Below, in pieces: positions 1 to 33,183 of a DNA stretch of 64,000 nt; the first letter of the stretch is position 1, and each line of letters starts with the position of its first letter. The DNA comes from Proteinivorax tanatarense (GTDB lineage Bacteria; Bacillota; Proteinivoracia; Proteinivoracales; Proteinivoracaceae). The notes beneath the pieces are model-generated. The model searched no databases. It had not been told where the DNA came from and saw only the letters and a program-made list of their open reading frames with translations. The stretch is taken from the NCBI RefSeq assembly GCF_040267685.1, contig NZ_CP158367.1:2666001-2730000 (forward strand), in the 5' to 3' direction. A program made the position numbers and the translations under genes.

Positions 1-742
1 ATAACTGCTAAACTTCCTCCACTTTCAGGAAAGGCTGCTGGAAGAACAAGTCCTGCAATTAAGCCTACAATACCGGAAGCCATAACTGGTCCATGACCTA
101 AACGATGAGATATGGCATAGGTTATAACACCTGCAAATACTGAACATATTATTATTTTCACCATCATATCTACGTTAGGAATTTCTGCACTTAAAAATTC
201 CTGACCTGTTAACAACCCGGTAACTATGCACCCTGTAAAGGCAATGGTACCAAATTTACCACCAAACCCGTTAAAGACTATTTTAGATATGACAAATACT
301 ATACCTGCAATTGCTCCTGCAACAATTATTGAAATATAAGAAGAGAGCAGTGCCTCCGAAGCCATACCCACAAAAGCTCCTGTATATAATGGTGCACCTA
401 GTTTGGGAACTACCAAAGCCGCTAAAACCCCCACAGCCCCTGCAGCTACCACTGCACCAAGTTGAAGCTCTACACTTAAAAAGTACGTTATAACAGCTCC
501 TATAACTATTGAAAGAAAGTTATAAAAGTCATTGACATCAAACTTAGTTGTCTCATAATTACTAACTAGATTTAACGATATTTCTTTTTTCATTGCGTAT
601 ATAATACCTACAATCGCGATAGTTAAAACCGAAGAAGTAAAGAAGTGGTTTGCAGCAAAGGCAGCATAAAGCCCTGCAGTATATAAAATTAAACACATAA
701 CAACTAAAATTACATAGCCTAAAGTCCAAATTGCTTTTTGCA
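1..742 (-). CDS. Polytopic membrane protein, fused form (3' end off the window)
   Basis: An open frame begins at ATG 740-742, after a TTTAGGAGGC-like ribosome site, and runs without a stop off the left edge (247 codons visible). It is very hydrophobic, with many Ala/Gly/Val/Ile membrane segments. Near residue 160 it carries FGGKLGTIA. I cannot name the family with certainty. Its first half resembles the small protein at 31581-31952 and its second half (HRLGHGPVMASGIVGLIAGL) resembles the protein at 31149-31568, so this is a fused version of that pair. It is the last visible gene of the NuoF-like/hydrogenase/formate dehydrogenase operon; its paralogues sit beside fdhD. A role in formate or ion movement linked to formate dehydrogenase is an inference from context only. 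Confidence 0.75.
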
Positions 743-761
743 TAGTTTGCCTCCTTTTTTT

Positions 762-810: not shown

Positions 811-3507
811 TTAACCCAGTTTTTCTATATTAACACCTGTAACCTTCAAACTTGGAATACTAGCTTTAGCATCTAATAGTTCGGAGTTAGTTAACACGTT
901 TGCTCCATCTTTAAAGTGGAAAGGTACGCTAACTACTTTGTCAGAAACTAACTCTGTTATAAACGCTCTAGGTTTTATTTCACCTCTTGGTGAAGTTACC
1001 TTTACCACTTCTCCATTTTCTATCCCAAGCTTTTCTGCTGTGTTAGGACTGATTTCTACAAAGGTTTCATTGACAAGTTTGTTTACGCCCTCTGTTTTAC
1101 CAGTCATTGTCGAGGTGTGGTATTGATATAGGACACGGCCGCTGGTCATAATATAAGGATAATTACCTTTATCAGATAACTCCGGCGTTTCTTCAAATTC
1201 AACCGGCACTAGCAAGCCCTTACCCCTTGCTGGCTGGTTTGAGTGTAAGAATTTGGTACCTGGATGCTCTTCATTTGGACAAGGCCACTGAATTCCTTCA
1301 TCTTTAATGCGTTCGTATGTGATACCAGCATAAGATGGAGTTACAGCTCTTATTTCTTCGAATACCTCTTCTGCAGTTTCAAAGTTATTCTCATATCCTA
1401 AAGTTCTCATTAGTTCAACAAATATTTGCCAATCTGGTTTTGCTTCTCCAGGAGCGCTCACTGCTTTTCTTACCCTTTGGACTCTTCTTTCGGTATTAAC
1501 AAAAGTTCCATCTTTTTCTGCAAAGGCAGCAGCTGGTAAAACAACATCAGCAAGCTCTGCTGTCTCCGTTAAAAATATATCCTGTACAACTAAGAAACTT
1601 TCTTTTAGCCCCTTAATTACATGGTTTGTATCGGGATCGGATAACACAGGGTTTTCTCCCATAATGTAAAGCATTTTAATTTTTCCGCTTTCTGCATGTT
1701 TCATCATATGGGTCATGGTCATTCCATTTTCCCCAGATAGCTTTGTTCCCCAAGCCTTTTCAAACTTTTCCTGAGCTTTTTTATCGGCAACAGGCTGATA
1801 TCCAGTATAAACGATAGGTAAAGCACCCATATCACAGGCTCCCTGTACGTTGTTTTGACCCCTTAGCGGGTTAATTCCTGTTCCTTCTCTCCCCAAGTTG
1901 CCAGTAACCAAAGCTAGATTAGATAGACTGATAACACCGTCTGTTCCTTTATGATGTTGAGTTATTCCCATGCAGTACATAATACTTCCTCTATCGTATT
2001 TAGCGTACATTCTGGCAGCTTTTCGGATATCTTCTGCATCTACCTCACAGATCTCTGCTACCTTTTCTGGGGTGTATTTTTTCAATACTTCTTTCAACTG
2101 CTGGAAATCTTCAGTATTTTTCTCAATATACTCTTTGTCCTCTAGACCTTCCTCTAAAATCACATTTAGCATTCCATTTGATAATGCAATACTGGTACCT
2201 GGTTTAATTTGCAAAAATACATCAGATACATCCTCCAGTGAAATTTTGCGAGGATCAGCTACTATTAATTTGGCGCCTTTTTTAACGGCTCTTCTAATAC
2301 GCGCTCCAATAACAGGGTGATTTTCTTCTGTATTTGTACCTGTTAAGAATATAACTTCTGCCTTGTCTATTTCTTCGATACTATTTGTCATAGCTCCACT
2401 TCCAAGTGTAGTTGCAAGACCTGCAACTGTAGAGCTGTGTCAGAGTCGAGCACAGTGATCAACGTTGTTTGTACCGATACCTGCCCTAAAAAACTTAGTC
2501 ATCATATAATTATCTTCTGTTAAAGCTCTAGCGGAAGAAAATCCACCGATAGCATCGGGTCCATCTTGTTCTTTAATTTCAGTTATTTTATCCGCTATTT
2601 TTTGGTAAGCTTTCTCCCAAGTTGCTTCTATAAGCTCACCATTTTCTCTTACAAGTGGTTTGCTTAGTCTATCAGGGTGGTTAATAAAATCAAAAGCGAA
2701 CTTGCCTTTTACACAAAGTAAACCTTGATTCAACTTGCCTTTTACGGGATTGACCTCTACTATCTTGTCATCCTTAGTGGAAAGTTCTAGCTGACAACCA
2801 ACTCCACAGTACGAACAGGTAGTTTCAACTTTTTCTGTTTCCCAGTACCTATATTTATGCTTTGCTTTGGGCATCAATGCCCCTACTGGACAGTTTGAAA
2901 CACAGTTTCCACAGGATACACAATCTGTCTTGGTTAACTCTCTCTCAATGTTTTGGGGAGCTTTAACATACCCCTGTATTCCTTGTCTTACTAGAGATAA
3001 CCCTTCTACACCCTGTAACTGCGTGCAGATTTCTACACATTTTCCGCAGGCGATACATTTCTCTCTATCAATGTAGTAAAAAGGATTTTTGTCGAAAAGT
3101 TCCTTTGGAGCTATATTTTCTCTGAAATAGTCAGGGCCTTGAACATCGTATTTATAGCAATACGTTTGCAAATCACAATGCCCCGACTTTTCACAGGTTA
3201 AACAATCTAAAGGATGATCAGCTAAAATCTCTTTAAGAATCTCTTGTCTAGCTCTAACTACATTGTCCGATTCTGTCCAAATTTCCAAATTATCCTTTAC
3301 TATTACATCAGTAGAATCAACTAAACTCTCTTCTCCTTTTATTTCAACAATACTTAAGTCAGCCCCACTATCTACAGTTTTCATATCAAAGCGTTCGTCA
3401 TAATTTAAAGTTGGTATATTTATGTCGTTTAAGCGAGCTGCATTAAAAACACTTATTCCCTCTTCACATTGAACAGGTCGTCCGTTAATTTTAATCGTTA
3501 TCATCAT
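811..3507 (-). CDS. fdhF: Selenocysteine formate dehydrogenase, NuoG-like N-terminus
   Basis: Molybdenum/tungsten bis-MGD formate dehydrogenase catalytic subunit of about 898 residues, read through an in-frame UGA at 2440-2442 (residue 356) in the motif DHCARL-U-HSSTVAGL. The two open frames on either side of the UGA are one gene. Order of parts: a ferredoxin-like fold that has lost its [2Fe-2S] cysteines, a His-Cys3 [4Fe-4S] site (HPLDCLTC..GHCDLQ), two ferredoxin [4Fe-4S] motifs (CIACGKC, CVSCGNC), the FDH [4Fe-4S] (CSYCGVGC), then the MGD domains. I chose ATG 3507, which lies 5-6 nt after AGGGG; the GTG at 3513 lies in the ribosome site. It overlaps the end of hydA. Expected to be cytoplasmic and to form a complex with the hydrogenase encoded upstream. 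Confidence 0.95.
2410..2428 (-). promoter_or_regulatory. SECIS element of fdhF
   Basis: Eleven nt after the UGA the mRNA can form AGTTGCA-GGUCU-TGCAACT, a stem with the GGUCU apical loop also present in the E. coli fdhF SECIS that binds SelB. It supports reading the UGA as selenocysteine. Confidence 0.85.
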
Positions 3508-5260
3508 ATTCACCCCTTACATCAATATTTTTCTTTGAGCGATCAATATAGTGGGTATGAAGTAAATCATGAGCTTTATGTCCACCAGGCTGTCCTAAAT
3601 AATTATCATACAATTTGCTAATTAGAGGATTCTCATGAGAACGGCGCAAGATAGAGCTTCCGTCTGTTTTATAAATACCTGCCATTCTCTTTTTGACTGT
3701 TTCCATAGAATCTGGGATAGGAGCTCCTCCTCCGTTAATGCAACCTCCTACACATCCCATTATTTCAACAAAGTGGTATTTTTTTTCACCATTATCAATC
3801 TTTTTCATTAGCTCCTTTGCAGCAGCTGTACCATGGACAACAGCAATTTTAACCTTCATATCTGCTATTTTAATCTCTGCTTCTTTAGCATTTGTCAGTC
3901 CTCTTACACCTTCATACTCTATTTTGTCTAGTTCACCATCACTAAGTTTCCAAGCAACTGTTCTTAAAGCTGCTTCCATAACTCCACCTGTTGTACCAAA
4001 AATTCTTCCAGCACTAGTGTGATCTCCTAAAAAGTTGTCAAAACTTTCTTCGTCAAGCTTTGCAAACTGAATTTTTTCCATTTTTATCATTTTTGCTAGT
4101 TCTCTCGTTGTCAGTACCGCATCTACATCTTTTAGGCCGTTGACTTTTAGTTCTTCTCTATCTGCTTCGAATTTTTTAGCAGTACAAGGCATTATAGATA
4201 GGCTAAATATTTTTTGAGGATCTAAATCATTAATCTCTGCATAATAGGATTTAGACAAAGCACCGAACATTTGTTGTGGTGATTTACAAGAAGATACATT
4301 TTCCAATAAGTGGGGATAATTATGTTCTACATACTTTACCCAACCTGGAGAGCAAGATGTTAACAACGGAAGCTTTTCACCTTTTTGGACTCTGTCAATA
4401 AACTCAGTTCCCTCTTCCATTATTGTCAAGTCTGCTGTAAAATCGGTGCTAAATACTTTGTCTACACCTAGCTTCCTTAAGGCTGCGTTGGTTTGTCCTG
4501 TAACATCAGTGCCAGGCTCCAACCCAAACTCTTCACCCAAAGTGTGTTTAACAGCTGGTGCTGTTTGTACCACTACGTGTACATTAGGATCATTTATAGC
4601 TGTACGTACTCTTTTGATGTCATTTTTCTCTACTAACGCCCCTACAGGACATACTTTTATACATTGACCACAGTTTATACAATCGGTTTCTAAAATAGGT
4701 TCCTTTTCTTTAGTGTTAATGACTGTGTCATGTCCTCTTTCAGTATAATCATAAATGCCTATGTCCTGTGTTTCCGAACAAACTCTAACACAGTTTCCAC
4801 ATACTATACATTTATTTACATCTCTAGTAATCGAAGTACTTGATAAATCAAGGACTTCTTTTTGTGGCAAAGTCTCCAGCAATTGCTCTTTTCTATTAAC
4901 ATCATATTGATAACAAAGGTTTTGCAATTCACAATCGCCAGCAACTTTATCGCAAGTCAAGCAATCATTTGGGTGATTGGCAATTAAAAGTTCTAACGTC
5001 GCTTTTCTAGAATCTTTAATTTTCTCTGTTTCTGTGCGCACTATCATTTTATCTTTTACTTTAGTATTACAGGAAGCCAAAAGTTCCTCTTCTCCATCAA
5101 CCTCCACAACACACATCCTACAATTTCCCTCATTATTCAAATCGGGATGAGTACATAAAGTAGGGATGTTAACTCCATTTTTCTTACATACATCCAAAAT
5201 TGAATTATCTTCCGTAGCAACTACATTTTTATCGTTTATAGTTAATCCAACTGTTGCCAT
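3491..5260 (-). CDS. [FeFe]-hydrogenase catalytic subunit, M3 type
   Basis: About 589 residues. It has a plant-type [2Fe-2S] domain (Cys 36, 47, 50, 64), a His-Cys3 [4Fe-4S] (HPNDCLTC..GDCELQ), two ferredoxin clusters (CIVCGNC, CINCGQC), then the H-cluster domain with TSCSPGW, MPCTAKKFE and EIMGCVGGCINGGG, and a small-subunit-like tail ending near LYDNYLGQPGGHKAHDLL. Ser stands where C. pasteurianum hydrogenase I has the proton-relay Cys 299 (TSCCPGW). It catalyses reversible H2 oxidation/proton reduction. I chose ATG 5260, 7 nt after AAGGAGG, over the ATG at 5266 which abuts the ribosome site. It lies between the NuoF-like gene and fdhF, so the three products probably form one complex. Confidence 0.95.
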   Translation of the reverse strand: MATVGLTINDKNVVATEDNSILDVCKKNGVNIPTLCTHPDLNNEGNCRMCVVEVDGEEELLASCNTKVKDKMIVRTETEKIKDSRKATLELLIANHPNDCLTCDKVAGDCELQNLCYQYDVNRKEQLLETLPQKEVLDLSSTSITRDVNKCIVCGNCVRVCSETQDIGIYDYTERGHDTVINTKEKEPILETDCINCGQCIKVCPVGALVEKNDIKRVRTAINDPNVHVVVQTAPAVKHTLGEEFGLEPGTDVTGQTNAALRKLGVDKVFSTDFTADLTIMEEGTEFIDRVQKGEKLPLLTSCSPGWVKYVEHNYPHLLENVSSCKSPQQMFGALSKSYYAEINDLDPQKIFSLSIMPCTAKKFEADREELKVNGLKDVDAVLTTRELAKMIKMEKIQFAKLDEESFDNFLGDHTSAGRIFGTTGGVMEAALRTVAWKLSDGELDKIEYEGVRGLTNAKEAEIKIADMKVKIAVVHGTAAAKELMKKIDNGEKKYHFVEIMGCVGGCINGGGAPIPDSMETVKKRMAGIYKTDGSSILRRSHENPLISKLYDNYLGQPGGHKAHDLLHTHYIDRSKKNIDVRGEYDDND

Positions 5261-5280
5261 TTTCATACCTCCTTTAGCTT

Positions 5281-6438
5281 TTATTCCTTATGTTGAAGAC
5301 TCGCCATAATTGGATTTATAGCTTTATTTCCAAACCCACATAAAGAAGAATCTTTTATTGCTTTTGCAAAAAGCTCCACTAGTTTAACCTTATCCCGCTC
5401 TCCTTCAAAGACGGCTGGCACAAGATCCCCCATTCTCTTTAGTCCCTCTCTACATGTGGAACATTTGCCACATGATTGCTGTGAATTATGTTGCACTGAG
5501 TTAACAATAAGTTCTGTTAACCTTTTTTTATCTTCTATAACTTCTACAGGGCTCGCCCCAAGTAAAAAACCTTCCTTCTTTGAGGTTGCATAATCAATCT
5601 TTGTTGTTTTTAGTTGTTCCTCGGTTAAAACTCCACCTAAACTTCCCCCAACATTTATAGCATACAGGTTGGGAATGTTTATTCTTTCACTTGCTTTTTT
5701 AATTAGTTCTTCGAAGTTAGAGCCCAGCTCCATAGTAACTAGACAACCTTCCTGACCATTATTTACATAAAATACTTTGCATCCATAATTATCTGCTTCC
5801 CCCATAGTCTTAAACCATGAGCTTCCATTTTCCACTATTAAAGATATATTAATTAAAGTTTCTACGTTAGCAATAAATAGCTTGCTTTGCTGCCATGTAT
5901 TTTTGGCTTCTAAAAATGGGTAACGTCCGTGACTTAAATTTTCTTTATAATTAGTTAAAAGTGCTATGTCATTATTAAAAAAAATATTCTTTTCATCTAC
6001 ATCAATAATGTCAATTTTTAACTCTTTAGCCTTAAAATAACCCATTTTCCCCATTTGTTTAATAGTTAGTTTTAACATTCTACTAATCAACTGGTGGCTT
6101 TCGTTTATAAAAATGCTAACTTTTGATGCTTTTACCGCTTTTGCAGATAAAACTAAACCTTGAACTAAGTGGTAGGTATTCGATGAAGCTAAGCCATTAT
6201 CTAACTTTGAATTGCCGATATGCAAAACTACTTCTTTAGAGCCAGTATATTTTGCTACCTCTTCCATATAATTACCGATAAATATTTTTCTACCATCCCT
6301 GCTGAGCAGCTCAGCTTCTTTTATCTCTTTAATAACTTCTTCGCCTTTACTTTCTACGACAGCCATTGAGTCAAAAGCGAGTTTCTCCACATCATATTTT
6401 TCTAAATCTTGTTCGTTTAGAGATAAAACTCTTTCCAT
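5281..6438 (-). CDS. NuoF/HydB-like iron-sulfur subunit lacking visible flavin and NADH motifs
   Basis: 385 residues. The C-terminal [4Fe-4S] site of NuoF-type subunits is intact: SCGKCSTCREG followed about 40 residues later by LCGFG. The N-terminal half keeps only loose resemblance to the NuoF flavin domain: I cannot find the glycine-rich GRGGAGFPTG loop nor the ADEGEPGTFKDR-type stretch, and the protein is shorter than complex I NuoF (about 430-450) and much shorter than HydB. It is the first gene of the operon, with AAGGAGG well placed before ATG 6438. It may have become a structural or electron-wiring subunit that does not use NAD(P)H; this is inference from missing motifs. Confidence 0.8.
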   Translation of the reverse strand: MERVLSLNEQDLEKYDVEKLAFDSMAVVESKGEEVIKEIKEAELLSRDGRKIFIGNYMEEVAKYTGSKEVVLHIGNSKLDNGLASSNTYHLVQGLVLSAKAVKASKVSIFINESHQLISRMLKLTIKQMGKMGYFKAKELKIDIIDVDEKNIFFNNDIALLTNYKENLSHGRYPFLEAKNTWQQSKLFIANVETLINISLIVENGSSWFKTMGEADNYGCKVFYVNNGQEGCLVTMELGSNFEELIKKASERINIPNLYAINVGGSLGGVLTEEQLKTTKIDYATSKKEGFLLGASPVEVIEDKKRLTELIVNSVQHNSQQSCGKCSTCREGLKRMGDLVPAVFEGERDKVKLVELFAKAIKDSSLCGFGNKAINPIMASLQHKE

Positions 6439-6741: not shown

Positions 6742-6797
6742 TTTAAACTAAAAAATGGTACCTGCTAGTAATAGCAGATACCATTTTTTAGTTTAAA
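6742..6797 (-). terminator. Intrinsic terminator of the MCP-fused sensor gene
   Basis: A long inverted repeat (arms 6742-6760 and 6779-6797, core TGGTATCTGCTA) with flanking A/T tracts. Its right arm overlaps the last codons and stop of the sensor gene. Confidence 0.8.
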
Positions 6798-8680
6798 TTG
6801 TTTTTTCCAGTTAGTTCAGAAGAAGTATTAGATAAATCTTCTAATGACGAATTTGTTTCCTCAGATATAGCCATAACGTTTTCCATTTTTTCTCCTACAA
6901 TGCTAATAACTTTATTAAGTTTATCTACTGAATCTTCTATGGTTTTTACACTCTTTACTCCACTACTATTATTTTTTTCTGTTTGGGATACCACAACCTC
7001 AGATTGTTCTGCAAGCTTTCTAACTTCCTCAGCAACAACGGCAAACCCCTTACCCGCGTCTCCTGCTCTGGCCGCTTCTATAGATGCATTTAAAGCAAGC
7101 AAGTTAATTTGTTCTGCAATTTCTACAATTTTGTTTGACATTTCTTCATGCTCCGAAAAAGTTTTCGTCAATAAATCAACGCTGTTAATAGTATCTTGAG
7201 ATGCAGTTTCTATATCTCCCATCTGACTGTTTATTTCATACATATCTTTAGCCGTCTCTTCTGAAACTTTGGTCAAATCATTAATAATGCTGTTTATATT
7301 TTCTGCCCCTTGCTTTATGTTTTCCAATAACATCTCTTGTTTTCGGGAGTTTTTTCTAGTTAACTCTGCATTTTGTCGTTCTTCATTTAACAACTTTTCC
7401 TGTTTGATTTCCCCTTCTCTTCTATTATATTCTATACAGTTTTCTAAAACGTTGTAATTTAAGGCAATAACTTTAACCATATCTTCACAACTTTTATAAC
7501 CACAAGCAGCACAATCAAAATTTTTATCTTCATCGGTTTTTTTGTGAAGTTTACTGTAAATTATATCCTTTTGATTTTGTTCAACCTCCTTCTCTTTCCA
7601 TCTATTATTATAAGTTACTTTAAAGTCATCTACCCGTAGCTTTTTCTCGAATTTTTTCATCATATCTCTTGGAGAAACTTTCGAAAAAAGCCCTTTCTTT
7701 TGTGCAGTTATTTTTTTAGTCTTCTCATACAAAATAGCATCCATTTCATCAGGGCTCATCATGTCTTCGGTAGCAGTTCCCAGCAAACATCCTTCTGAGC
7801 AATTAAGTATATCTATAACAAAAGGAAGCTTCCCCTGTTTTTTGTTGATACCAGATAAATAGTTTTGAACTAATTTAGGCCCTTCAATTTTTTTAATATG
7901 AAATCCCTTTCCATAAACCTGCTCAATACTTTCTTTTAATCCCCCAGGAGTGGGATACCAAAACCCTACTAAACTTTCAGGAGAGTCAAAGTTTTCTTCT
8001 TTTTCCCATTCCCCTTCTTTTCTATACAGCTCCATAATTTTCTTAAATGTAATGTTATAATCAATATGCTTATGTCTTCTGAATTCGTCGGTTTTTGCTA
8101 TACAAGGCGACAGTGCAGCTATATTCCCCTCAAACCCTTCATATTTTTTCAAATATATAGCTGCACAAGACATAGGTGAACCAACCGGGCTTAAATATTT
8201 TAATAAATTTGGATAATATCGTTCGATACTGTTCACAATCACAGGACATGGTTGAGAAATGATAGTTTGTATACTTTTTTCTTCAAAAATTTTCATATAA
8301 AGAAATGTAGTGATATCTGCCCCAAAGCTAACATCATAAATCAATTGGATTCCTTTACTCTTTAACCAAGCAAACACCTTTTTGTACTCATCGGGATAAT
8401 TTAACATAAAAGCAGGGGCAACTACTATGGATATTTTTTTGTTTTGCTGAAGATCTGTTAAAAGCTGCTCTATATCGTCTTGATAATATCTGGCTTGATG
8501 GGTACAAGCTTTTATACACTCTCCACATGTTATACACTCCTCATTTGCTATATCAACTTTTATTGCCCCAGATTCATCTTTAAAGGCTTTATTGGCCAAT
8601 ACTTGAGGGCATTCCCTAATACATTTATCGCATCCTGTACATTGTTCTTTATCGGTTTTTATTATTTTTTCTCCTAACAT
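6788..8680 (-). CDS. H-cluster-domain sensor fused to a chemotaxis (MCP) signalling domain
   Basis: 630 residues, no membrane segment, so cytoplasmic. Order: two [4Fe-4S] ferredoxin motifs ([23 protein letters not shown]), an [FeFe]-hydrogenase-like domain (about 65-330) that keeps the four H-cluster cysteines in [16 protein letters not shown] and NCSEGC, a C-x2-C-x4-C-x16-C cluster domain (CAACGYKSC), a coiled coil, then the MCP hairpin tip ([21 protein letters not shown]). It probably converts H2 or redox state into a chemotaxis-type signal. The RBS AGAGGAGG precedes ATG 8680. It has its own sigma-54 promoter and sits between the hydrogenase operon and the sigma-54 activator gene. Whether it binds a real H-cluster is unknown. 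Confidence 0.9.
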
Positions 8681-25636: not shown

Positions 25637-27295
<1,659 letters not shown>

Positions 27296-27302
27296 TCAAA
27301 TT

Positions 27303-27587
27303 TTATAAAATCGCTAATACGTCTTTTTCGCTTAAAATGAGGTACTCTTCACCATCAATTTTTACCTCAGTGCCTGCATACTTAGAATACATTACAGTAT
27401 CTCCAACAGATACCTCCATATCTACTTTACTACCATTTTCTAGCACTCTACCACTTCCAATGGCCATAACCTCACCTTTTTGAGGTTTTTCTTTAGCGTT
27501 GTCTGGCAATACAATGCCACTAGCTGTTTTTTCTTCACCTTCTACGGTTTTAATTACAACTCTGTCTCCTAAAGGTTTGATGTTCAT
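27303..27587 (-). CDS. groES: Co-chaperonin GroES
   Basis: 94 residues, [13 protein letters not shown] at the start and the mobile loop near [12 protein letters not shown]. Lid of the GroEL ring. First gene of the groESL operon under CIRCE control. Confidence 0.99.
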
Positions 27588-27629
27588 TTTTATGTACCCC
27601 TCCTTATTGATTTATTTATTTTTGTTTTG

Positions 27630-27697
27630 TTAGCACTCACCAATAACGAGTGCTAACATCTACTACATATTTTAGCCAATTTTTTTCCCAAAATCAA
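27630..27697 (-). promoter_or_regulatory. groESL promoter with CIRCE operator
   Basis: CIRCE is perfect: TTAGCACTC-N9-GAGTGCTAA at 27630-27656, the HrcA heat-shock repressor site. Upstream on the minus strand are -35 TTGATT (27692-27697) and -10 TAAAAT (27669-27674), 17 nt apart, placing the operator at the transcription start. Confidence 0.95.
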
Positions 27698-27719
27698 GTA
27701 TTTTTCTAAAAAATTTTAG

Positions 27720-29612
27720 TTATTTTTTTTTACTACCTTCAATGGATATAATGTTCCCACAATCCTTTAAATTATACCCACCTAATTTATTTACTTCTTG
27801 TTTAAAACTAGTACTAGTGATGACACTGTGTAAAACCTTAAACCCTTCTGACTTATAGAACTCTTCGGTTATTAGTAAGTCATAGCTTTCTTCAAACACA
27901 GGTACGAAGTCTATTTCCATAGCCTTACTAGCTGCATAAATCCCCATACCAGCTTGTACACGACCACTTTTTACTTGAGCAGCCACGTCTAAGTGAGTAA
28001 AATATTCTTTATTATATCCAGATATTTCTTTTGGTGATATTCCATTCTGATATAAAAGGTAGTCAAGTAAAACTCTGGTCCCTGCACCTTTTTGTCTATT
28101 GGCAATGCTAATTTTGGTTAGATCTCCAATTTGCTTAATATTTAAAGGGTTTCCCTTTTGTACCATTATCCCCTGAGTTCTTTTCGCCAAGCTTAATAAA
28201 TATACTTTTTCATCAGAAATATATCTTTTTATATAAGGTATATTATATTTTCCGGATTCAGGATCTAAAAGATGTACACCAGCCATATGAGCTTGCCCTT
28301 TTTTGATTGCCATTATTCCTCCTAAACTTCCTACATGGGCAGAATTCAAGGAATATTTAGGAGTAACCCCTTTTGCTATTAAGTCAAGGCAAAGATCATG
28401 GCTTCCTACTGCCATAATAGTTTTTTCCAAATCTAATTGTTTAAAAAGTTCTATCTCTACATCTTCACCAGCTCTATGCCCTTCAGAGTTTGAAGGTACT
28501 GTAAGAAGTCCATCTCCATGGACGATAGTATTCATAAGAGCTGAACCTCTGCCTAATGGAGTAGCTACTACCTTCCCCTTAACTTTTCCCACCTTTACAC
28601 GAATGAATTCTTTATGTTTAAGGTCAGAAACTGCAGGCTTAGTTAATCTAGCTTTTAAGGTAATGCTGGGAACAGAGGTTATTTCCATTAAAGAATGATA
28701 AATTTCTTTTATAATTTTCTCCATAACTATAAATCCAGAAACAGGGTATCCCGGCACTCCAATAATAGGTTTATCAAACGCTTTTCCTAAAATTGTAGGC
28801 TTGCCAGGTTTGATTGCAACTCCATGATAATAAACCTCTCCTAAAGTATTGATAACTTCTGACGAGTAGTCATCTTTACCAGCTGATGAACCAGCATTTA
28901 GCAGCACCATATGACATTTTGCAGCTGCGTCTTTTACAGTTTCTTTTAAAGCTTTAAAGTCATCCTTTACAATTGGATAAACTACAGGGTTAGCTCCCCA
29001 TTTTTTCAAAAGAGCTGCAAATAAATGAGAATTGCTATCTACTATTTCACCTATTTGGGGGTTGTTTTTATGTGATACGATTTCATCCCCTGTGGGAATA
29101 ATAGCTACCTTTATCTCAGAAGTGACTAGCACTTTTTTAGTTCCACTTGCTACCATTACTGCCACGTCCATAGGTTCGATAGTCTTCCCTTTTGGCAAAA
29201 GCAGTTCATGGGCTACTATATCCTCACCGATAGGCCTTATATGTTGCCCTTTAAATGCAGCTCCTATAATTTCAATACCATCCTGCAATTTATTAACATC
29301 TTCTATTTTTATCACAGCATCAAAACCGTCTGGCACAGCATCCCCAGTGTCAACATAAACTGCCTGCTTATCAAATTTAAGCTCCACTGGCTTATCAACG
29401 TTTGCACCAACTGTTTCTTCAGCCTTTACAGCATATCCATCCATAGCAGAGCTAACATAATGGGGTACAGAGCGTGTCGCATACACATTATCAGCACAAA
29501 CTCTCCCTAACGAATCTTCTGGCTCAATTTTGTCAATTTCTATTAGCTTAGAAAACTCTTTTTTATAACTGTCAAGGCATTCTTCTAAAGGCGTATTTTT
29601 TAAATAAACCAT
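27720..29612 (-). CDS. MoeA-like molybdenum cofactor protein fused to a periplasmic-binding-protein-like domain
   Basis: 630 residues. Residues 1-400 are MoeA: SAMDGYAV, PTGDEI, GSSAGKDDY, PGYPVSG. Residues about 400-625 form a PBP-like domain (AVGSHDLCLDLIAK, GTRVLLDYLLYQNGI, VKSGRVQAGMGI) of the type that binds small anions. MoeA inserts Mo or W into molybdopterin; the extra domain may sense or select the metal, but that is inference. Its start abuts the stop of the second MoeA, so both are made together, near fdhD and the formate dehydrogenase that needs the cofactor. Confidence 0.93.
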   Translation of the reverse strand: MVYLKNTPLEECLDSYKKEFSKLIEIDKIEPEDSLGRVCADNVYATRSVPHYVSSAMDGYAVKAEETVGANVDKPVELKFDKQAVYVDTGDAVPDGFDAVIKIEDVNKLQDGIEIIGAAFKGQHIRPIGEDIVAHELLLPKGKTIEPMDVAVMVASGTKKVLVTSEIKVAIIPTGDEIVSHKNNPQIGEIVDSNSHLFAALLKKWGANPVVYPIVKDDFKALKETVKDAAAKCHMVLLNAGSSAGKDDYSSEVINTLGEVYYHGVAIKPGKPTILGKAFDKPIIGVPGYPVSGFIVMEKIIKEIYHSLMEITSVPSITLKARLTKPAVSDLKHKEFIRVKVGKVKGKVVATPLGRGSALMNTIVHGDGLLTVPSNSEGHRAGEDVEIELFKQLDLEKTIMAVGSHDLCLDLIAKGVTPKYSLNSAHVGSLGGIMAIKKGQAHMAGVHLLDPESGKYNIPYIKRYISDEKVYLLSLAKRTQGIMVQKGNPLNIKQIGDLTKISIANRQKGAGTRVLLDYLLYQNGISPKEISGYNKEYFTHLDVAAQVKSGRVQAGMGIYAASKAMEIDFVPVFEESYDLLITEEFYKSEGFKVLHSVITSTSFKQEVNKLGGYNLKDCGNIISIEGSKKK

Positions 29613-30829
29613 TATCCTCTCTCCTTTAAGTAAATTTTTACTTTTTCTCCCTTCGCTAGCCCTTCACTATGAATAGGAACAATTATATAGCCATCCATTT
29701 TTGTTAGCACACCAATCGAATTCGATTTTGCAAATAAAGGTTTAACTTCAATTTTATCTTTCACTTGGTTTACCTTTACAGGTACATAGTCCTGCCTTCC
29801 ACCTGCTGAAGGTATGTTTTGATTAAGGTACCCAATTAAAGTCTTTTCTTCTGTATAATTATTTAATAAAGGCCGGACAAACAGCTTAAAGCAAAGCATC
29901 GCCGACACAGGGTTTCCAGACAAGCCAAATACAGGTGTATTATCAATTTGTCCTATTATAGTCGGCTTTCCCGGTTTCAGCGCAATACCATGAATTAAAA
30001 CCCCAGGGGTTCCTATACTTTCTATAGCTTCTGCTACATAGTCCTTTTTCCCTACTGATGTGCCACCGGTTAACAGAACTATTTCGCATTCATTAACGGC
30101 CTTTTTTAAAGTAGATTTTACATCATTAAATTGATCTTTTACAATACCATAATACTCAGGAATTCCACCCCATAACTTACAAGCTGCCATTAGACCAGGT
30201 CCATTACTGTTTGGAATTTCACCTAAGCACCATTCTTCCCCTGTTTCCACAAGCTCATCACCAGTAGATATTATCCCCACCCTTACTGGTTTAACTATAG
30301 AGACTTTTGTTACACCTAATGAAGAAAGAAGGTTTATGCTCTCCGGCAGCACTTGATCTCCTTTATTCATAATAACCTCACCTTTTTTAATATCTTCACC
30401 TTTTATAATAACATTCTCACCTGATGCCACACTTTTATGTATTCCAACCTCATGGTCAGAAAAATTTTCCGTATACTCCACCATTACAACTGAATCTGCA
30501 TTTTTAGGCAACATTCCCCCGGTGGGAACTTCTACACAACTACCGGGCTTTAGTTCATTAGTTGGTGCAGTTCCCATTTCCAGCCGTTCTATAACCTCCA
30601 AAAGTGAGGGTAGAGATTCACTAGCACCTGATACATCTTCCCACCTGACAGCATATCCATCTACAGCAGACCTGTTAAATTGCGGCAGATCATATGGCGA
30701 GTAAATATCTTCGGCTAGAGTTTTCCCTACAGCATCCACGATATCAACAATTTGTTCCCCAGGATTCACTTTAAAAGAATTAATTACTTTATATACTTCT
30801 TCTACAGATTTTACATTTAAAAAAGCCAT
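29612..30829 (-). CDS. moeA: Molybdopterin molybdenumtransferase MoeA
   Basis: 405 residues with all MoeA motifs: RSAVDGYAV, PTGGMLP, STGDELVE, LTGGTSVGKKDY and SGNPVSA. It ligates molybdate (or tungstate) to adenylylated molybdopterin. First gene of a two-MoeA operon and one nt overlaps the next start. ATG 30829 follows AAAGGGAGTG. The 170-nt leader upstream is discussed separately. Confidence 0.95.
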   Translation of the reverse strand: MAFLNVKSVEEVYKVINSFKVNPGEQIVDIVDAVGKTLAEDIYSPYDLPQFNRSAVDGYAVRWEDVSGASESLPSLLEVIERLEMGTAPTNELKPGSCVEVPTGGMLPKNADSVVMVEYTENFSDHEVGIHKSVASGENVIIKGEDIKKGEVIMNKGDQVLPESINLLSSLGVTKVSIVKPVRVGIISTGDELVETGEEWCLGEIPNSNGPGLMAACKLWGGIPEYYGIVKDQFNDVKSTLKKAVNECEIVLLTGGTSVGKKDYVAEAIESIGTPGVLIHGIALKPGKPTIIGQIDNTPVFGLSGNPVSAMLCFKLFVRPLLNNYTEEKTLIGYLNQNIPSAGGRQDYVPVKVNQVKDKIEVKPLFAKSNSIGVLTKMDGYIIVPIHSEGLAKGEKVKIYLKERG

Positions 30830-31036: not shown

Positions 31037-31046
31037 ACTAAACACT

Positions 31047-31098
31047 AAAAAGGCTGTATCAATCAGGATATATAGTCCTGTTTTGATACAGCCTTTTT
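31047..31098. terminator. Bidirectional terminator
   Basis: AAAAAGGCTGTATCAA and TTGATACAGCCTTTTT (31047-31062, 31083-31098) with an inner AGGATATATAGTCCT stem. It ends the fdhD/membrane-protein operon ahead of the moeA promoter. Confidence 0.9.
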
Positions 31099-31148
31099 AG
31101 TAAGCTCAATCAATTGTGGTCAAAGGGTGAACTACCTCTATACTATGT

Positions 31149-31568
31149 TTATTCGGTAGCTTGAGCACCTTTGGTGCCACCTGATATCTGGCGATAAACG
31201 GCCTTAGCTCCATATAAAGAAAGTACTGATATACAAGCAATGGTACCAAGTTTTCCACCTATACCAGCAAAAGCATTAATTGACACCACAAAGATAATAC
31301 TCAAAAATATTAACGCTACAGTCATTTCTTTAAAGTTTCTCACACGGTTTTTACCTGACATTCCGGCATAAGATGCAGCAGTAACTGCAGTAGCTAAAGT
31401 CATCCCTGTATCCGCTCCAAAGATTGCTGGAAAAGTTATACCGCTTAATAACGCAAGCACCGCTGAGGCGAAAACAGGTCCTTTTTCGAGATTATGGTTT
31501 ATATAGAAAGTTAAAAGCCCTCCTAAGATTGTCAAAGCAAAAACTTGAATTATCATAAAGCCTTCCAT
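31149..31568 (-). CDS. Membrane protein, split form, second half
   Basis: 139 residues, about four membrane helices. It contains the motif GGKLGTIA and NHNLEKGPVFASAVLALLSG, which aligns with the second half of the fused protein at 1-742. ATG 31568 follows GGAGGGG. It lies 12 bp after its partner at 31581-31952, and the two probably form a hetero-oligomer equivalent to the fused protein. Family not certain; function unknown. Confidence 0.75.
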   Translation of the reverse strand: MEGFMIIQVFALTILGGLLTFYINHNLEKGPVFASAVLALLSGITFPAIFGADTGMTLATAVTAASYAGMSGKNRVRNFKEMTVALIFLSIIFVVSINAFAGIGGKLGTIACISVLSLYGAKAVYRQISGGTKGAQATE

Positions 31569-31580
31569 TTAAACCCCTCC

Positions 31581-31952
31581 TTAAGAGATACTGAAAATTC
31601 CCATGGTTATAAGCACAGCTAATGCTGCAATAGTTCCCAGTTTTCCACCGAATCCATTATAAATAGGTTGTACTAAAATAAATATAAGCCCCACTAAAAG
31701 ACCAGCTAAAATTACCATTCCATAGTTTGTTAAAACAGCGGCGGAAGACATGCCAGCAAAAGCTGCTGTATATGCCACCACAGCAAGGTCTTTAGGCAAA
31801 AATAGAGCTGCTAAAAGCCCCACTATTCCAGAACCTACCATAGCATTAAGACCTAAAGCGGGTGCTCCTAGGACGTCTGGATCAGCACCTAAAAAGAATG
31901 TAAAAAAAGTCCCAAATACAGCTGAAAGTAAAATTTGAGTACGTTTATCCAT
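31581..31952 (-). CDS. Membrane protein, split form, first half
   Basis: About 123 residues, four membrane helices, ending in YNGFGGKLGTIAALAVLITMG. It aligns with the first half of the fused protein at 1-742 (NGFGGKLGTIA). I chose ATG 31952, 8 nt after AGGAG, over GTG 31961. Both halves share GGKLGTIA, so the fused protein is itself a two-repeat structure. Part of a short operon behind fdhD. Confidence 0.75.
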   Translation of the reverse strand: MDKRTQILLSAVFGTFFTFFLGADPDVLGAPALGLNAMVGSGIVGLLAALFLPKDLAVVAYTAAFAGMSSAAVLTNYGMVILAGLLVGLIFILVQPIYNGFGGKLGTIAALAVLITMGIFSIS

Positions 31953-31963
31953 GTTTTCCACTC

Positions 31964-32143
31964 CTATCCATCATTTTTTATTTCTTGCACATGATGATAA
32001 ACACCTATAGCATACAGTATAGCTACAACTGCTAAAAGAACCAGAAAAATGCTGTTACCCTCCCAAGTAATAACAGATCGGTAAATTAGAAGCACACCTG
32101 TTCCTATTAATAATAAAAAGGCTGGTAAATTTTTAGTCACCAT
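31964..32143 (-). CDS. 59-residue two-helix membrane protein
   Basis: A small frame starting at ATG 32143 with a very good ribosome site (AAGGAGGTGA) inside the end of fdhD, overlapping it by 11 nt. The product has two hydrophobic stretches (LPAFLLLIGTGVLLI, IFLVLLAVVAILYAIGVY) and ends HHVQEIKNDG. It stops 12 nt before the start of the split membrane pair, so the genes are translationally linked. Function unknown; a small subunit of that membrane complex is the simplest guess. Confidence 0.65.
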   Translation of the reverse strand: MVTKNLPAFLLLIGTGVLLIYRSVITWEGNSIFLVLLAVVAILYAIGVYHHVQEIKNDG

Positions 32144-32933
32144 AGGTCACCTCCTTTAGCCTGTAGTGGTGAGTATAACAATTAAGCTTTTTCCCTCTAA
32201 CAAACCCTATTAAGGTCAGTCCTCCCCGTTCCGCCAAGCTAATTGCCAGAGAACTGGGCGCCGATCTAGATACTAAAATGGGAATCTTTGCCTTAATTAC
32301 TTTAAGCACTATTTCTGAAGAAAGTCTCCCGCTAGAAAGCAATATCTTATCTTCCACGGCCATCTCATCAAGAAATGCCCTACCTAAAATCTTGTCTACA
32401 GCATTATGCCTCCCTATATCTTCTCTTGTGTAAAGCAGATTTTCTCCATCAGATAAACTTGCTGTGTGAACTCCACCAGTTTCTTTATATAATTGTGATA
32501 CTTTTTGGACTTGATGCATTTGTTCCATTATCTTTTGAGCTGAAACCTCAACATCTTTATTCAATTTATGCCCCTTGTTATTTAAAGAGTCCAACACGTT
32601 ATAAAATATAGTCCCTTTGCCACATCCTGTAGTAATGGTTCTCTTACCGTATAACTTCTTCTTTAATGGACTGTAATTAGGGATGCTCACTTCCACAACG
32701 CCGTTATCTTTGTCCAAATCTATAGCTTCAATCTCATCAACTTTAGAAATTAAGGATTCCGACAAAATAAACCCTATAACAAGCTCTTTTTGGTTATAGG
32801 GTGTAGAAAGTAATGTTATAAATTGGTCACCATTGATATAAATTGTTAAAGGAGTTTCCTCCACCACACAATCTTCCATACTTTTATACTCATTATTTAC
32901 AAACCTAACTATATCAACTTTTTTCTTAGCCAT
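32133..32933 (-). CDS. fdhD: Formate dehydrogenase accessory sulfurtransferase FdhD
   Basis: 266 residues. FdhD passes sulfur from a cysteine desulfurase to the bis-MGD cofactor of formate dehydrogenase. The active-site loop is TTGCGKGTIF, with one Cys where the E. coli protein has two (CGVC). Other motifs: FILSESLI, GGVHTASL, EDIGRHNAVDKILG and VSRSAPSSLA. Preceded by a TATAAT box about 40 nt upstream. Its end overlaps a small membrane-protein gene. Confidence 0.95.
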   Translation of the reverse strand: MAKKKVDIVRFVNNEYKSMEDCVVEETPLTIYINGDQFITLLSTPYNQKELVIGFILSESLISKVDEIEAIDLDKDNGVVEVSIPNYSPLKKKLYGKRTITTGCGKGTIFYNVLDSLNNKGHKLNKDVEVSAQKIMEQMHQVQKVSQLYKETGGVHTASLSDGENLLYTREDIGRHNAVDKILGRAFLDEMAVEDKILLSSGRLSSEIVLKVIKAKIPILVSRSAPSSLAISLAERGGLTLIGFVRGKKLNCYTHHYRLKEVTYGD

Positions 32934-33049: not shown

Positions 33050-33146
33050 TGGCGGGAGTGCATGGGAATCGAACCCACCATGGACATTACTCATGCCCAC
33101 TGTTGGATTTGAAGTCCAAAGAGCCCACCAGGACTCATCCACTCCC
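33050..33146 (-). tRNA. selC: tRNA-Sec (anticodon UCA)
   Basis: 97 nt. Acceptor GGGAGTG pairs with CACTCCC, discriminator G then encoded CCA. The anticodon loop ACTTCAAA gives UCA for UGA, there is a long variable arm (CAGTGGGCATGAGTAATGTCC region), and the T arm is GGTGGGTTCGATTCCCATG. The length and long arm are typical of tRNA-Sec. Confidence 0.95.
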
Positions 33147-33153
33147 AGTTATC

Positions 33154-33183
33154 ATTATATATTGCACAGTTACAATCTGTCAA
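33154..33183 (-). promoter_or_regulatory. selC promoter
   Basis: Minus-strand TTGACA (33178-33183) and TATAAT (33154-33159), 18 nt apart, between the selD stop and the tRNA 5' end. The tRNA can therefore be made independently of the selD operon. Confidence 0.85.

Follow-up and report, generated by a model that had tools for sequence, protein, structure and literature searches.

A membrane protein of predicted inverted-repeat architecture encoded in fused and split form near formate dehydrogenase genes of Proteinivorax tanatarense

Gene content of the two loci

The window (the whole stretch of 64,000 nucleotides from Proteinivorax tanatarense that was analysed) carries the same type of membrane protein twice. 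The first copy is a single fused gene at the left edge of the window, downstream of fdhF, hydA and a NuoF-like gene. The features of this cassette are as follows:

1..743, minus strand: 5' part of the gene of the fused membrane protein (N-terminal two helices, unit A, start of unit B)
811..3513, minus strand: fdhF, N-terminal iron-sulfur domains of the NuoG type; the selenocysteine position coincides with an in-frame TGA (2440-2442)
3491..5266, minus strand: [FeFe] hydrogenase HydA (NCBIfam NF040763, group A6)
5281..6438, minus strand: NuoF-like subunit; SCGKCxxCREG 4Fe-4S motif kept, GRGGAGF flavin/NADH motif absent

The fused reading frame starts with the ATG at 743 (minus strand), which is preceded by a good Shine-Dalgarno sequence. 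It overruns the window edge by 244 bp and ends at genome position 2665757, and when the remainder was taken from the genome sequence, a complete protein of 328 amino acids was obtained. Further downstream, beyond the window (L006 3033-9727), we found a complete Mrp operon, which includes an ND5-type subunit. This operon is preceded by an ECF-S-like gene (161 amino acids), and an ECF-S-like protein is also encoded near hydA and the membrane protein in Fermentithermobacillaceae (L045, L055, L196). A stable hairpin follows the in-frame TGA of fdhF (2380-2445, minus strand) and constitutes a plausible bacterial SECIS element; Rfam reported no SECIS at this site at the gathering threshold.

The match of the NuoF-like gene to Complex1_51K was below the Pfam cut-off. 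The GRGGAGF motif is kept in nearly all other NuoF neighbours of the family, and among the loci read its loss is particular to the genus of the window. The flavin-less subunit suggests an NAD-independent formate-hydrogen enzyme, and judged by its genes the cassette looks like such an enzyme placed beside a sodium/proton antiporter. In gene content it is comparable to a cluster of Thermococcus onnurineus (PMC8965080), which also combines formate dehydrogenase, hydrogenase and Mrp-type antiporter genes. However, the window has an [FeFe] instead of a [NiFe] hydrogenase, its NuoF-like subunit lacks the flavin motif, and the unnamed membrane protein lies between the enzyme and the Mrp modules. A protein of 630 amino acids (6788-8680, minus strand) combines a hydrogenase-like iron-sulfur domain with a signalling domain of the methyl-accepting type and is perhaps an H2 sensor for the hydA/fdhF operon.

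The second copy is split into short genes that follow fdhD:

31045..31105, minus strand: long hairpin (-31.5 kcal/mol) plus T-run behind B; the tRNA-Sec/fdhD/X/A/B unit likely terminates here
31149..31568, minus strand: split unit B, 139 amino acids; five helices (AF2 model, pLDDT 89.8), C-terminus cytoplasmic by charge
31581..31952, minus strand: split unit A, about 123 amino acids; five helices predicted by homology, N-terminus cytoplasmic by charge
31964..32143, minus strand: two-helix reading frame X, 59 amino acids; corresponds to the pair of N-terminal helices in the fused protein; overlap with the fdhD 3' end
32133..32933, minus strand: fdhD, for formate dehydrogenase maturation; leads the protein genes of the split operon
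33054..33146, minus strand: selenocysteine tRNA (RF01852, 76.5 bits)
33154..33183, minus strand: promoter-like site TTGACA-18-TATAAT directly upstream of the tRNA (12/12 matches)

The X, A and B genes are tightly spaced, and the split copy probably shares a transcript with the selenocysteine tRNA and fdhD. For unit A, the ATG at 31952, which the sequence-only reading had chosen, is a better start than that of the longer call (31581-31961). The sequence-only reading had listed units A and B correctly, but it had missed the third gene, X, whose counterpart in the fused protein, by both position and size, is the pair of N-terminal helices. In a sister species, the two-helix piece and unit A form one fused gene, and thus one-, two- and three-gene versions of the membrane protein exist.

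Homology, membrane orientation and distribution

The initial proposal that the same membrane protein occurs fused beside fdhF and split beside fdhD was confirmed by pairwise alignment. The first half of the fused protein aligned to split unit A (31581-31961) with a Smith-Waterman score of 221 (shuffled mean 43.5, z 22), and the second half to split unit B (31149-31568) with a score of 229 (shuffled 35.3, z 31), so that the alignments of the left-edge gene to the 31581-31952 and 31149-31568 products are far from background. Shuffle tests also related unit A to unit B, both in the split pair (z 11.6) and between the two halves of the fused protein (z 13.4). When profiles were compared, hhalign yielded E-values of 3.9e-31 for fused A versus fused B and of 2.4e-26 for split A versus split B, whereas reversed-sequence decoys reached only 0.2-0.3. 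Since the pairwise scores are far above those of shuffled sequences and the profile E-values far better than those of the decoys, the internal duplication is real. An ancient duplication had been suggested before on the basis of three units; the duplication is strongly upheld, but the number is four, since the fourth GGKLGTIA copy lies just beyond the window edge and all four units are mutually homologous (profile E 1e-26 to 1e-40).

For structural modelling, AlphaFold2 was run on a family member from Halobacteroidaceae with 51 natural relatives as input. Here, we obtained a confident model (pLDDT 95.4, pTM 0.93) with 2+5+5 helices, a count that takes the long second helix of unit A as two. 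Unit B of the window was also modelled by itself with five helices (pLDDT 89.8). To define the orientation of the units, we counted lysine and arginine residues in the loops of 51 fused and 18-19 split proteins. In fused unit A, the mean K+R content was 1.84 before the unit, 0.10 past its first helix and 0.14 between helices two and three. The matching loops of unit B contained 0.73 and 1.80, and the C-terminus 2.36. Among the split genes, the corresponding means were 2.0 for the N-terminus of A, 0.06 for the N-terminus of B and 4.8 for the C-terminus of B. This alternation of loop charges indicates that A enters the membrane from the cytoplasm and B from outside, and each half carries an odd number of helices (five), as needed for a fusion to invert the second half. 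Taken together, the model and the charges argue that the protein very probably has an inverted-repeat architecture with two homologous five-helix units in opposite orientation. The data support that the fused and split forms are one protein. Homology, the five helices per unit and the opposite charge bias of the products further lead us to infer that split A and B pair as an antiparallel heterodimer.

Antiparallel homologous membrane pairs and their fusions have been reviewed for DUF606 and YdgQ/YdgL (PMC3962082). These systems share with the present one the homologous units, the adjacent genes of opposite charge bias and the existence of a fused version. However, we found no sequence relation between them and the membrane protein of the window, and the extra two-helix N-terminal piece and the formate dehydrogenase/hydrogenase/Mrp setting are particular to the present family, in which no single-gene dual-topology form was seen. 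That one genome carries the split as well as the fused form makes this family a good case for the evolution of inverted repeats.

A profile search had been recommended to name the family, but no name was obtained, since no Pfam or NCBIfam family exceeded its cut-off and the Mrp antiporter subunit families of these collections did not match either. There was no PHROG match for unit B, no PDB sequence match for the membrane protein and no description of the family in open-access literature text. A similarity to phage holins (Pfam E 0.002, under the cut-off, 3/51 members) was taken as chance. Kinship with ThrE/YjjPB, to which similar short motifs had drawn attention, was rejected (ThrE_2 PF12821, hhalign probability <=5%). 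Searches of PDB folds with the whole protein and with unit B gave nothing convincing. The urea transporter/Amt-Rh/NqrB fold group, which is also built as an inverted repeat, yielded weak matches (best Z 5.9) in which the two halves were aligned one after the other, but Z-values of 5-6 over 160-190 residues at an rmsd of 4-6 are too low to be meaningful for helical bundles. With unit B alone, urea transporters and NqrB recurred among weak Foldseek matches, and these two proteins resemble each other (PMC10643135). NqrB/RnfD (PF03116) showed no kinship (hhalign probability <=6%, E 0.006 in a single comparison), and NqrB carries a flavin, whereas the membrane protein of the window shows no such site. 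CLC chloride channels were matched weakly (Foldseek E 0.006, TM-score 0.17).

When 84,980 species genomes were scanned, 190 loci were found, of which the best 80, leaning to relatives near the query, were kept. According to the record names, from which the lineages were taken and which include many metagenome-assembled genomes, the kept loci belong to Bacillota, Chloroflexota, Spirochaetota, Thermotogota, Synergistota, Atribacterota, Bipolaricaulota, Mycoplasmatota, Bacteroidota, Omnitrophota and Actinomycetota, and also to haloarchaea. In the phylum of the window, 24/348 genomes carry the family. No relative was detected on the viral contigs searched, and the only one on plasmids belongs to the haloarchaeon Natrinema zhouii and has no formate dehydrogenase neighbours. 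A contig with two fused copies of the family one behind the other was reported by the genome search (L195, G288:C94). In a tree of 72 proteins, nearly all fused forms were separated from the split forms with high support: a split set of 17 rows was supported with 100/99 and a branch with 99/97 parts 49 fused rows from the rest. The two copies of the window fall into different deep lineages of this tree, which rules out a recent duplication within the genome and indicates that they are deep paralogs.

Gene neighbourhood and conserved residues

The sequence-only reading had linked both copies to formate dehydrogenase and had called for a survey of the genomic context. Among the best 80 of the 190 loci, 77 were readable, and their neighbours were labelled according to blastp hits among the genes of the window (e-value 1e-5), with Pfam/NCBIfam used for spot checks. 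Genes of the FdhF/NuoF/HydA type occupied 34/403 slots within three genes of the membrane protein but only 1/336 slots at a distance of six to nine genes (odds ratio 31; Fisher p 1.6e-8, which is a guide only because the loci are related). This adjacency was found in Bacillota, Chloroflexota, Spirochaetota, Bipolaricaulota and Atribacterota, at about eight places on the tree, but most of the 77 loci have neither formate dehydrogenase/hydrogenase nor Mrp genes nearby. At the genome level, fdhD was present in 6/12 carriers outside the class of the window versus a background of 49%, and Mrp genes in 5/12 versus 33%, which is only slightly more frequent. Genome-wide presence of fdhD or MnhE was therefore dropped as evidence for a link. 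Strong local adjacency at background genome-level frequencies means that the link is local and repeated, not obligate. The proposed association with formate dehydrogenase thus holds for gene neighbourhoods in five phyla, but neither as genome-level co-occurrence nor as a formate-only relation. At L045, L055, L059 and L071, the membrane protein adjoins an NADH-type [FeFe] hydrogenase with no formate dehydrogenase nearby. Mrp genes adjoin it in Alkaliphilus, L046, L097, L086 and G342, and in several relatives they are the sole such partner. The copies of haloarchaea, Flavobacteriaceae and Mollicutes are located beside neither hydrogenase nor Mrp genes.

The main rival to a transport function, possible though rather doubtful in our estimate, is that the protein serves as membrane anchor or coupling subunit. 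It would then hold the NuoEF-FdhF/HydA module, which is otherwise soluble, at the membrane and connect it to Mrp if there is one, with redox energy driving the movement of ions. This is consistent with an exchange of partners even inside Fermentithermobacillaceae, where HydA (L045/L055/L059/L071) alternates with FdhF (L060) and the NuoF module is kept throughout. It also agrees with the gene order at L086 (membrane protein-NuoE-NuoF-FdhF-Mrp) and with the position of the complete Mrp operon right behind the fused gene in the window's genome. However, copies that stand alone or have only Mrp beside them lack a redox enzyme that could be docked, and a 5+5 inverted repeat exceeds the needs of an anchor.

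In the class of the window, the order around the split pair is fixed (selA-selB-LysR-selD-fdhD-X-A-B), and moeA is often next. In the window itself, moeA, a moeA fusion (PRK14498) and groES-groEL (25637-30829, minus strand) follow the sel/fdhD cluster, and the same order is seen in several genera of this class. Such a locked position, together with the selenocysteine tRNA at the head of the same probable operon in the window, would fit a protein that imports the selenium, molybdate or tungstate needed to mature formate dehydrogenase, an explanation that ranks next after the anchor among the rivals. We consider this explanation quite improbable, since other copies lie beside [FeFe] hydrogenase or Mrp genes without selenium or molybdenum genes and fdhD was not detected in 7/24 carrier genomes.

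The GGK-x-GT motif is kept in each unit, with K154/T157 and K284/T287 being invariant or nearly so, and S214 and R253 are further conserved polar residues. The 5+5 core has no well-conserved acidic or histidine column (best acidic column 61%). An acidic residue where the second N-terminal helix ends, E50, shows 86% conservation. One cysteine per unit (Cys112 and Cys242) is common in fused copies (88% and 80%), but the split A and B of the window lack cysteines at these positions. With no conserved histidine and no cysteine common to all copies, there is no redox cofactor site, which again speaks against an anchor that couples redox energy. The same residues bear on an intramembrane electron conduit of the RnfA/RnfE (NqrD/NqrE) type, in which an antiparallel homologous pair would hold an iron-sulfur cluster. 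In favour of such a conduit are the NADH/ferredoxin enzymes next to the pair and the frequent cysteines of the fused copies. However, NqrD/E supply four conserved cysteines (PMC10643135), two in each subunit, whereas the present family offers at most one per unit. PF02508 profile similarity was absent (hhalign probability <=2.2%). The conduit is thus largely refuted by the window's own split copies, and we regard it as highly improbable.

Possible function

Adjacency to formate dehydrogenase or hydrogenase genes in five phyla suggests that the protein probably moves an ion or a small molecule for these enzymes. We therefore favour, with middling confidence, a channel or carrier that would serve formate dehydrogenase/hydrogenase and the Na+/H+ circuit by transporting an ion or small solute. 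According to this proposal, the protein would be made either as one chain (beside fdhF) or from three short genes (after fdhD), the A and B products of which would pair in antiparallel fashion. Its two N-terminal helices would precede two oppositely oriented five-helix units of a transport-type protein, with two lysine-containing loops related by inverted symmetry. The fused copy may serve a formate-hydrogen enzyme, in which FdhF and HydA would be wired by the flavin-less NuoF-like subunit, beside the Mrp Na+/H+ antiporter. Counting against a channel or carrier is the lack of a sequence match, or of a convincing fold match, to any known transporter family.

A more far-reaching version is that of a dedicated ion- or anion-conducting module, which ties the flavin-free [FeFe]-hydrogenase/selenocysteine formate dehydrogenase (formate hydrogenlyase-like) to a complete Mrp Na+/H+ antiporter in an energy-conserving assembly so far undescribed; this appears unlikely to us. 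The membrane protein family is widespread and unclassified, and gene order conserved in several phyla ties it to anaerobic energetics based on formate, H2 and Na+/H+. Should NAD-type formate dehydrogenases and [FeFe] hydrogenases have in it their missing transporter or coupling subunit, the view of how such 'soluble' enzymes come into contact with the membrane would have to be revised.

As to the substrate of the favoured channel or carrier, the lysine loops and the lack of a well-conserved acidic residue in the core would favour an anion (formate, bicarbonate) over cation antiport. Formate is one candidate only, and a formate-only role does not fit the copies with hydrogenase alone, Mrp alone or neither partner. 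The formate channel FocA of the FNT family (PF01226) is an inverted repeat, and a role beside formate enzymes is what the present protein would share with it. At E 10, PF01226 was absent from the Pfam matches that were listed for 51 members, and its hhalign probability was <1%. Kinship with RnfA/E, NqrB and FNT was rejected, since there was no profile signal. The genome of the window encodes no FNT-type formate channel, and such channels were rarer in carriers of the family (3/24) than in other genomes (21/55; p 0.03, phylogenetically confounded).
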